Positions 48,550 through 50,437 of a stretch of DNA of 64,000 nt are shown in pieces. Positions within the stretch are counted from its first letter, which is position 1; every line of letters starts with the position of its first letter. The position numbers and the translations under genes were made by a program. The stretch lies in assembly GCF_001889265.1 (NCBI RefSeq), contig NZ_CP018151.1:3472001-3536000 (forward strand), given 5' to 3'. This DNA comes from Microbacterium sp. 1.5R. GTDB lineage: Bacteria > Actinomycetota > Actinomycetes > Actinomycetales > Microbacteriaceae. The notes beneath the pieces were generated by a model. That model was not told the origin of the DNA, did not search any database, and saw nothing but the letters and a program-made list of their open reading frames with translations.

Positions 48550-48906
48550 ATGGCCGACCTCGTCCCGTTCCCTCGCGCACCTCGCTCTGCCCGCCCTCGT
48601 CCCAGTGAGCCCGAGCCCCTATGGCGCCAGATGGTCGGCGATCAGCTGCGCCGTCGACGACACGACCGGGACGAGACCCTGACCGAGACGGCAGGGAACG
48701 CCGGAGTCTCGCCGCAATACCTCTCCGAGGTCGAACGGGGACTCAAGGAGCCGTCGAGCGAGATGATCGCGGCGATCGCCGGGGCCCTCGACACCTCGCT
48801 GATCGAACTGACGAGCGCCGTGGCCGACGAGCTGCGCCAGGCGACGATGGCGCCGGCATCCGCTGCGGTGTCCGCCACCCGCGGGGCCTTCGCCCTCGCC
48901 GCCTGA
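48550..48906 (+). CDS. PopR/ClgR-like XRE regulator
   Basis: 118 residues. HTH at about 30-85 (LRRRRHDRDETLTETAGNAGVSPQYLSEVERGLKEPSSEMIAAIAGALDTSLIELT), the ClgR/PopR signature. The protein ends AFALAA. In Streptomyces PopR the terminal alanines target it to ClpP proteolysis, so this end suggests a Clp-degraded activator. A PopR-box-like palindrome precedes it and related boxes precede the ClpP operon 1.4 kb away. The symbol popR is not assigned because orthology is unproven. Confidence 0.85.
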   Translation: MADLVPFPRAPRSARPRPSEPEPLWRQMVGDQLRRRRHDRDETLTETAGNAGVSPQYLSEVERGLKEPSSEMIAAIAGALDTSLIELTSAVADELRQATMAPASAAVSATRGAFALAA

Positions 48907-48918
48907 CGGCTCGTCTCG

Positions 48919-49032
48919 TCTGCCCGCCCGTCTGAAGGTCCGTCTGCAGGTCCGTCCGTCTGCAGGTCCGCCCGTCTGACGGTCCGTCCGTCTGCAGGTC
49001 CGTCCGTCTGCAGGTCCGTCCGTCTGCAGGAC
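48919..49032. repeat. 16-bp tandem array
   Basis: Units TCTGCAGGTCCGTCCG: five full-length units after two 12-base ones, with a final partial unit that is also the outer end of the palindrome at 49021. Located between the convergent PopR-like gene and clpP2-type gene. Confidence 0.9.
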
Positions 49033-49111: not shown

Positions 49112-49705
49112 TCAGTCCGCCCGCTCCCCCAGCACGGTGTCGACCAGACCGTAGTCCCGGGCGGCGGATGCCGTGAAGACGCGATCCCGGTCGGTGTCGG
49201 CGCGCAGCTCGCTCAGCGAGCGTCCGCTGTGCCTGGCGAGGATCGACTCCATGTCGGAACGCACCCGCACGACCTCGTCCGCCGCGAGGATGAGGTCGGG
49301 GATCGCTCCCCGCGACTGGCCCGCCGGCTGATGCAGCACGATGCGGGCGTGCGCGAGAGCTGCCCGCTGTCCCGGAGCCCCTGCCGCGACCAGCAGCGCC
49401 GCCGGCCCGATCGCCTGACCCACACACGTCGTCGCGATCGCCGGACGCACGTGCTGCATGGTGTCGTAGATCGCGAGCGCCGCCCCCGGGTCGCCACCTT
49501 CGCTGTTGATGTAGAACTGGATGCCGGAATCCTGGCTGTCGGCATCGAGGTGCAGCAGCTGCGCGATCAACGCGTTGGCGACTCCGGCGTCGATGCCGGT
49601 GCCGAGATAGATGACCCGCTCGGCGAGCAGGTGCGAGTAGACGTCCATGACGCGTTCACCGCGCGGATGCTGCGCGATGACGTTGGGGATCGTGTAACCG
49701 CTCAT
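49112..49705 (-). CDS. ClpP-like subunit lacking the catalytic serine
   Basis: 197 residues, full-length ClpP fold. YTIPNVIAQHPRGERVMDVY and IQFYINSEGGDPGAALAIYD are normal. The nucleophile segment reads CVGQAIGPAALLVAAG, aligning Gly100 with the catalytic serine (GQAASMGA in active ClpP). His125 in ARIVLHQP and Asp174 in DTDRDRVFTAS remain. The DNA (GGT CAG GCG ATC GGG CCG) rules out a misread. It is therefore probably inactive alone and needs the active partner encoded just upstream, with which it overlaps by four bases. Similar to ClpR-type regulatory subunits. Confidence 0.9.
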   Translation of the reverse strand: MSGYTIPNVIAQHPRGERVMDVYSHLLAERVIYLGTGIDAGVANALIAQLLHLDADSQDSGIQFYINSEGGDPGAALAIYDTMQHVRPAIATTCVGQAIGPAALLVAAGAPGQRAALAHARIVLHQPAGQSRGAIPDLILAADEVVRVRSDMESILARHSGRSLSELRADTDRDRVFTASAARDYGLVDTVLGERAD

Positions 49706-50316
49706 GCGCCCGCACCCAGCCCGACCCGGGCCCGACGACGCGGCATGAGATCCGCGAGCGAGGCGACGATCTCGTCGATGAACCCATAGTCCTTCGCCTG
49801 CTCCGCCGTGTACCAGCGGTCGTGCAGCGAGTCCTCGAAGATGCGCTCCACGGGCTGTCCGGTGTCGGCCGCGATCAGCCCGAGCACGGTGTCGCGCATG
49901 TGCCTCAGGTCGTCGGCCTGCGTCTCGAGCTCGCCCGCCGAGCCGCCGATCCCCGCCGAGCCCTGATGCATGAGGATGCGCGCGTGCGGGAGCGCCCTGC
50001 GCTTGCCCCTCGCCCCGGCTGAGAGGAGGAACTGCCCGGCGCTGCACGCGAGCCCGAGTGCGAGGGTCGACACGTCGTTCGGCACGAGGGTCATGAGGTC
50101 GCGGATCGCGAGCATCGCCGGCACGGAACCACCGGGCGAATGGATCCACAGGGCGATGTCGGTCGTCGGATCCTCCGCCGAGAGGGTGAGCAGCTGCGTC
50201 ATGAGCAGCGTGCCGTTGTCGTCGTCGAGGGCGCCGTCGAGCACGAGCACTCGTTCGTGGAACAGTGCCCGGCGGGCCTCGGGGCCGAACTGCGGGATGG
50301 GGTTGTCTTCGCTCAT
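49702..50316 (-). CDS. clpP: ATP-dependent Clp protease proteolytic subunit, active type
   Basis: 204 residues with an intact triad: Ser92 in LGLACSAGQFLLSAG, His117 in ILMHQG and Asp166 in LHDRWYTAEQA. LWIHSPGGSVPAMLAI is the oxyanion/handle region. First gene of a two-gene operon with a serine-less paralogue. The promoter region carries PopR-box-like repeats. It likely forms a mixed barrel with the second subunit and a ClpX/ClpC ATPase encoded elsewhere. Confidence 0.92.
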   Translation of the reverse strand: MSEDNPIPQFGPEARRALFHERVLVLDGALDDDNGTLLMTQLLTLSAEDPTTDIALWIHSPGGSVPAMLAIRDLMTLVPNDVSTLALGLACSAGQFLLSAGARGKRRALPHARILMHQGSAGIGGSAGELETQADDLRHMRDTVLGLIAADTGQPVERIFEDSLHDRWYTAEQAKDYGFIDEIVASLADLMPRRRARVGLGAGA

Positions 50317-50349: not shown

Positions 50350-50365
50350 GCGAGTATCCGCTCGC
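50350..50365. promoter_or_regulatory. Inverted repeat before clpP
   Basis: GCGAG and CTCGC around six bases, 34 bases upstream of the clpP start. It could be part of the promoter-proximal operator. Confidence 0.4.
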
Positions 50366-50366
50366 G

Positions 50367-50437
50367 GCAGATCGGCCCAGAGCAGATAGGCCCAGAAAAG
50401 ATCGGCCCCAGCAGATCCACCCGTGCAGATCGGTTCG
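50367..50437. promoter_or_regulatory. 15-bp repeats resembling PopR boxes upstream of clpP
   Basis: Degenerate units GCAGATCGGCCCAGA repeat with a 14-15 base period. The unit at 50372-50386, TCGGCCCAGAGCAGA, fits TCTGCC-N3-GGCAGA at 10 of 12 positions. The array is 51 or more bases upstream of clpP and also precedes the divergent thioesterase gene. Confidence 0.65.

Follow-up and report, generated by a model that had tools for sequence, protein, structure and literature searches.

Closely related systems have been described in several lineages. In the housekeeping ClpP1P2 protease of Mycobacterium tuberculosis and Streptomyces, ClpP1 gives the needed catalysis and ClpP2 docks the ATPase (PMC9067928, PMC9765437): in M. 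tuberculosis catalysis by ClpP1 alone is needed, and a clpP2 S110A strain grows normally with no visible effect (PMC9067928), and in Streptomyces full activity is kept with ClpP2 S131A and the ATPases dock on ClpP2 only (PMC9765437). Streptomyces also has an accessory clpP3clpP4 operon under the control of PopR, a ClgR paralogue that is degraded by ClpP1P2 (PMC9765437, PMC12607617). The PopR site is given as TCTGCC-3N-GGCGAATCTGCC-3N-GGCAGA with a 15-bp spacing, and ClpP1P2 is said to recognize PopR for degradation probably through its two C-terminal alanines (PMC9775585). A further point of comparison is ClpR of cyanobacteria, plastids and apicoplasts, an inactive ClpP paralogue that resides in a mixed core.

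The window, that is the whole stretch of 64,000 nucleotides of DNA that was analysed, contains an accessory clpP locus with a second subunit that is devoid of the catalytic serine. It comes from Microbacterium sp. 1.5R, a soil bacterium. We regard it as quite probable that this locus encodes an actinobacterial back-up Clp protease of the clpP3-clpP4-popR type, with a catalytic ring and an inactive ring for docking or gating. At the level of sequence, it can be recognized as a second operon-encoded pair of ClpP1-like and ClpP2-like subunits, accompanied by tandem PopR-type operators and by a regulator of ClgR/PopR type that is encoded convergently and ends in Ala-Ala.

Genes and active sites of the Microbacterium locus

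The features of the locus are the following:

48550..48906, plus strand: ClgR/PopR-type helix-turn-helix regulator of 118 aa, downstream of and convergent with the clpP pair, C-terminus ...FALAA (ssrA-like)
49112..49705, minus strand: 'B', the ClpP4-like second subunit, a 197-aa ClpP homologue that starts at 49705 (ATG) and stops at 49112
49702..50316, minus strand: 'A', the ClpP3-like first subunit, a 204-aa ClpP homologue with Ser92-His117-Asp166 intact and a short N-terminus
50356..50372, read on the minus strand: putative PopR-type operator box 1, ATCTGCC-GCG-AGCGGAT, about 40 bp upstream of the A start codon
50371..50387, read on the minus strand: putative PopR-type operator box 2, ATCTGCT-CTG-GGCCGAT, 15 bp from box 1
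50367..50433: 15-bp repeat array of 4.6 copies with GCAGAT half sites, overlapping the operator and running past both boxes

A lies upstream of B, and the stop of the former and the start of the latter share a 4-base ATGA overlap. Profile searches match B to PF00574 at 201.6 bits (cut-off 20.2) and A at 180.1 bits; the plus strand of 49112..49705, read for ClpP, contains none. An earlier note on this DNA, which left the strand unstated, had read a Gly encoded by GGG at residue 100 of B in place of the catalytic Ser, with His125 and Asp174 kept. The gene is on the minus strand, and frame, codon (49408..49406) and alignment all agree with this reading: Gly100 occupies the position of the ClpP nucleophilic Ser in the loop CVGQAIGPAALL, and His125 and Asp174 fall in the alignment columns of the other two triad residues. 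By alignment, the catalytic Ser-His-Asp triad of B is incomplete in that Ser alone is missing and His-Asp are retained. The intact triad that had been assigned to the operon partner is likewise read in 50316..49702. The B protein starts directly at the mature N-terminus, and its axial-loop region there reads YTIPNVIAQHPRGER; apicoplast ClpR is likewise without a prodomain (PMC7966870). An AlphaFold2 model of B, built from a 64-row alignment, has a mean pLDDT of 92.3, and Foldseek with this model retrieves 9ndj chain H at the top (TM 0.93), followed by E. coli and M. tuberculosis ClpP entries with TM about 0.9. Judged from its sequence, B is a ClpP2-like protein under purifying selection that has lost the nucleophile but retained the docking Tyr, the region of the axial loop and, as predicted, the fold, and is to be classified as a non-peptidase homologue of the Clp protease family (PF00574 / MEROPS S14).

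The genome (3.62 Mb, one contig) encodes four ClpP proteins, namely the A/B pair and a housekeeping pair of 198 and 213 aa in which both triads are intact. Both best match and tree indicate that A is ClpP1-like and B is ClpP2-like, and their gene order is that of the housekeeping operon, which suggests that the whole operon might have been duplicated. Three matches to the ClpB_D2-small family in the same genome are candidate Clp ATPases.

Triad loss in accessory second subunits

A scan of named genomes, from which the best 80 of 414 confirmed stretches were taken, gave together with the Microbacterium sp. 1.5R locus a set of 81 loci. Here the B triad reads GHD in 52, GDD in 1, AHD in 27 and SHD in 1, and the partner A reads SHD in 81/81. 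Gly is found in 52/52 named Microbacterium loci, and among the other 28 named loci of these best 80 of 414 there are 27 with Ala and one with Ser. In one of the 52 named Microbacterium copies (L071) Asp stands in for the triad His. Thus, to the question of whether Gly is fixed, raised in the earlier note for this locus across Micrococcales, the answer is affirmative for all Microbacterium copies examined, whereas elsewhere in the order the position is occupied by Ala, Ser, Thr or Phe. As Gly recurs in 52/52 named loci, and all four of its codons are in use among 56 Microbacterium copies, it can be attributed neither to a chance event nor to a sequencing slip. Given that the Gly of Microbacterium shares a clade with Ala relatives, and that TCN, GCN and GGN are connected by single steps, the likely path would be from Ser via Ala to Gly.

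Median pairwise dN/dS values in two groups of Microbacterium are 0.099 and 0.086 for B and 0.128 and 0.127 for A; the housekeeping pair has medians of 0.079 for the first and 0.155 for the second subunit. These values bear on the possibility that B is decaying, with the serine lost under relaxed selection and the gene on its way out. Such decay might account for the several triad positions that are lost in many ways, and for the many Microbacterium genomes without a second pair (a ClpP match occurs in 148 of the 149 genomes sampled, and at least four ClpP-family matches in 79/149). However, we hold it to be extremely unlikely, as the dN/dS of B, at 0.09 to 0.10, is not above that of its catalytic partner, and Gly100 is kept in 56/56 Microbacterium copies via all four codons (GGC 28, GGT 14, GGA 9, GGG 5). 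A pseudogene or a sequencing error was likewise ruled out by the fixation of Gly, the use of all four Gly codons and purifying selection.

The comparison was extended to 296 genomes sampled from the class and 248 sampled from the order, with the housekeeping pairs of the class as control; 322 loci were kept, and first and second subunits were assigned by domain position. Part of the triad is lost in 177/239 accessory B subunits and the triad is intact in 62/239, counts that lean to groups with many genomes. Hence triad loss, which the earlier note took to be uncommon for described actinobacterial ClpP pairs, is frequent in the accessory copies; at the same time, the 62 B subunits with a whole triad imply that loss is not required. 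The nucleophile position of the 239 B subunits is occupied by Ser in 85, Ala in 72, Gly in 65, Glu in 11, Trp in 4, Phe in 1 and Thr in 1, and there are changes of His and Asp too. Accessory A subunits have Ser-His-Asp in 237/238, the exception being L267, whose partner reads 'SH-' because the frame breaks before Asp and was scored as not intact. Housekeeping second subunits are intact in 83/83 and first subunits in 80/82. In L304 and L306 a Glu replaces the triad Asp of the housekeeping first subunit. In terms of genomes, accessory B is present in at least 90/296 of the class, and part of the triad is lost in 63 of those 90. Accessory loci outside the named set span 53 genus codes (29 with all lost, 20 with all intact and 4 mixed) and 20 family codes, with loss in 17 of the latter. 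In-frame TGA was flagged in the order rows G537, G597 and G587, which were kept since the second-subunit frame is open.

Unusual residues occur in two groups. In L111-L114 the accessory B has Trp at the nucleophile position (VGQAAWTAAV), and 3/4 of these also have Thr for the triad Asp. In the genus with the code f24g45 (L121, L122, L123, L125, L126, L128, L137, L138, L139, L148, L149) Glu is found at the nucleophile position, with His or Asn for Asp. The Streptomyces-like B follows another route in that it keeps Ser and loses His (SGD in 14 and SGE in 1, n=15), whereas in Microbacterium B Ser is replaced by Gly and His-Asp are kept. A plasmid copy from Streptomyces fungicidicus shows the same annotated arrangement, the operator box and a regulator ending in LCLAA, and its B is 87% identical to that of L164, for which reason the family f23 was taken to be Streptomyces or near it.

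Accessory and housekeeping B are separated by a branch with a support of 0.963 in a tree of all rows, and with 100/100 in a careful tree that used 75 of the 239 accessory B as representatives along with 8 housekeeping rows, the three triad columns being excluded. On the careful tree, parsimony requires a minimum of 8 changes between the intact and the lost state and of 5 between Ser and non-Ser; for the nucleophile letters the minimum is 12, for the triad His 7 and for the triad Asp 12. Parsimony is blind to whether these are losses or regains. Gly requires at least 3 changes on well supported branches. In Actinomadura hibisca, Ser within an Ala group could be a regain. A minimum of 8 separate switches between the two states suggests that evolution can dispense with catalysis by the ClpP2-type ring of a two-ring Clp protease, as the mutants of M. 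tuberculosis and Streptomyces had suggested. With the all-row tree rooted at the midpoint, ten housekeeping first genes of f23 (L307-L316) fall on the ClpP2 side; the three of these that were compared are ClpP1-like, with 57-59% identity to ClpP1 and 50% to ClpP2, and all ten were counted as first subunits. A phage origin was considered and rejected, the 115 matching phage records all being less than 60% identical.

Could another nucleophile allow B to act as a protease after all? Close to the site, Thr93 and Cys94 show good conservation, but both belong to the strand that precedes the elbow, and housekeeping ClpP2 has Val, Ile or Phe there. Another conserved Ser taking over, which the earlier note had named as a finding that would speak against its own reading, was sought in the nucleophile elbow along with Thr and Cys, and none of the three is conserved at >90% there across the 154 non-Ser B subunits. 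Accordingly, this alternative is highly improbable. The half-inactive mixed barrel put forward in that note is partly supported, namely by the sequence features: the triad kept in A, the Ser lost and the fold kept in B, and purifying selection. The note had compared it with ClpR-containing complexes; the closest system that we found is the ClpP3/ClpP4 back-up protease of Streptomyces with PopR. Relative to ClpR, the losses described here lie within the actinobacterial ClpP2-type clade and often affect one residue; absence of the whole triad is not seen in the B of Microbacterium sp. 1.5R, in which Ser alone is missing. The remark that no study of the matter was known was nearly right: in the open-access literature we found no study of an inactive accessory subunit, although PMC9067928 notes that S. 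coelicolor and N. asteroides have an inactive clpP allele. Triad loss in the accessory ClpP2-type subunit thus seems hardly discussed in the open literature.

The A gene adjoins accessory B in 238/239 loci, and in the remaining one, L126, B is at a contig end (L126 and L191 have a single ClpP only). This is relevant to a different role for an inactive B, as a modulator of the housekeeping protease that enters or replaces ClpP2 rings and alters activity or the choice of ATPase, rather than working mainly with A. Indeed, gene order and best match both assign B to the ClpP2 type, the docking Tyr is kept, and an ADEP producer is reported to have a ClpP homologue by which ADEP-activated complexes of ClpP1 are disrupted (PMC12607617). 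Nevertheless, if B were a free modulator, one would expect to meet it without A in some genomes, and the near-constant adjacency to A renders this role improbable.

Docking pocket and inhibitor sites

The pocket was compared at positions 60, 62 and 82, which we take to be the equivalents of E. coli Y74, Y76 and F96 in a numbering without the propeptide, and additionally at position 112. It binds both Clp ATPases and ADEP, and Y74, Y76 and F96 are three positions mutated in PMC9765437. The sampled housekeeping pairs, which keep their triads as given above, have aromatic residues at positions 62 and 82 in both subunits, and the accessory pair diverges from them. In accessory A, an aromatic residue is found at position 60 in 1/238 (versus 67/82 in housekeeping ClpP1), at position 62 in 202/238 (Trp 134, Tyr 63, Phe 5; versus 82/82, with Tyr in 80), at position 82 in 14/238 (versus 82/82) and at position 112 in 108/238 (versus 82/82). 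In Microbacterium sp. 1.5R itself these four positions read A, W, L and R in A, and Y, Y, F and Y in the housekeeping ClpP1 of the same genome. Accessory B is likewise not aromatic at position 60; it has the Tyr62 equivalent in 236/239 (82/82 in housekeeping ClpP2) and F, Y or H at position 82 in 239/239 (His in 77), whereas position 112 is hydrophobic in 49/239 versus 75/82 in housekeeping ClpP2, and aromatic in 32/239. Taken together, A is without much of the aromatic pocket of housekeeping ClpP1, and B has kept two docking positions and lost one, so that the complementarity is partial. On the tree, A-pocket and B-triad changes yield 6 phylogenetically independent pairs, with the second trait rarely differing, which is too few to link the two.

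An asymmetry is also apparent at the N-terminus. The YxxP segment before the axial loop is present in accessory B, with Pro in 239/239, and its Tyr column is a gap in 238/238 accessory A and in 72/82 housekeeping ClpP1. As this gap is common to most housekeeping ClpP1, A did not newly lose its N-terminal residues, and the asymmetry predates the accessory pair.

One possible reading of these pocket changes is that the pair owes its retention mainly to being inhibitor-proof: with the pocket of A changed and the reactive serine of B gone, the sites of natural ClpP-directed antibiotics would have been removed. The ClpP1 pocket binds ADEP (PMC9765437), A is less aromatic than housekeeping ClpP1 at positions 60, 82 and 112, and Streptomyces ClpP3P4 is termed ADEP-insensitive (PMC12607617); further, S. 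coelicolor without clpP3 and clpP4 is killed by beta-lactones (PMC9775585). On the other hand, covalent inhibitors could still attack the serine kept in 237/238 A subunits, 202/238 of these subunits retain an aromatic residue at position 62, and the Streptomyces-like B retains its Ser and loses His. We therefore consider it rather unlikely that resistance is the chief reason for which the pair is kept. A broader proposal, for which we see somewhat better prospects though it too is tentative and more doubtful than not, is that throughout actinobacteria various mutations have time and again pushed the back-up barrel into a hard-wired asymmetry, with a catalytic ring that has no docking pocket left and a ring for docking or gating that is unable to cut, the altered poison sites making it an inhibitor-proof spare. 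If this were true, the sites of the known natural ClpP poisons would be altered on both sides, i.e. the ADEP pocket of the ClpP1-type and the serine of the ClpP2-type subunit. The changed ClpP1-type pocket also offers a reason in sequence for the reported insensitivity of ClpP3P4 to ADEP, and the findings bear on which subunit ClpP-directed drugs should target.

Regulator and operator sites

The best NCBIfam match of the regulator is ClgR at 68.2 bits, which is below the equivalog cut-off of 170, as expected of a ClgR paralogue. A second ClgR-like regulator in the genome (G000:C1:1545339-1545563) is 45% identical to the product of 48550..48906 over 75 residues and may be ClgR itself. A convergent regulator is found near the accessory pair in 216/239 fetched stretches, within 300 bases in 178/216, and 205/216 of these regulators have an Ala-Ala C-terminus; beside housekeeping pairs it occurs in 5/83 versus the 216/239 accessory ones, in sets that differ in the length of the stretches. 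Between the regulator gene and the clpP pair there is a 16-bp tandem repeat, GTCCGTCTGCAGGTCC, in 5.8 copies at 48938-49030.

A de novo search for palindromes in the upstream stretches, made without reference to the published PopR site, returned TCTGCC-N3-GGCAGA as the commonest; it is exact in 48/238 accessory loci, while any palindrome reaches at most 3 in five shuffles. This is the PopR site given in PMC9775585. With up to 2 mismatches, the box is present in 194/238 accessory stretches, 15/82 housekeeping stretches and 6/238 shuffled ones. Pairs of boxes with a spacing of exactly 15 bp are seen in 75/238 accessory loci with up to 2 mismatches and in 127/238 with up to 3; such pairs are found in 11/82 housekeeping-clade loci and in none of the shuffles. 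Both boxes of Microbacterium sp. 1.5R have two mismatches each to the consensus. A degenerate box, drawn up after inspecting the boxes of the accessory family, has one perfect match in the genome, namely box 1, and with one mismatch allowed 23 sites versus 10 for the reversed pattern. As the repeat array is longer than the two boxes, more regulator dimers might bind.

The gene content, the operator and the regulator end of the Microbacterium locus thus fit the PopR system. It has in common with ClpP3-ClpP4-PopR of Streptomyces lividans and S. coelicolor two adjacent clpP genes besides the housekeeping pair, a regulator paralogous to ClgR with an Ala-Ala end, and an operator of PopR type with a spacing of 15 bp. 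In the back-up protease of clpP3-clpP4-popR type that we infer for Microbacterium, A and B would assemble as stacked rings, B being catalytically inactive. ClpX or ClpC would dock on the B ring, which might act as a gate and hand the substrate to the catalytic A ring. The loss of catalysis in B could then be seen as completing a division of labour that already exists in ClpP1P2, where the ClpP1 serine alone is needed. By analogy to Streptomyces, PopR-type control would mean that working housekeeping ClpP1P2 degrades the regulator via its Ala-Ala end, and that upon failure of ClpP1P2 the regulator accumulates and the A/B pair is switched on.

Tandem PopR-type boxes are also seen in 11 loci of the family f22 (L170, L172, L173, L176, L179, L182, L184, L185, L186, L187, L189), in which the pair nevertheless groups with housekeeping ClpP and has both triads intact.
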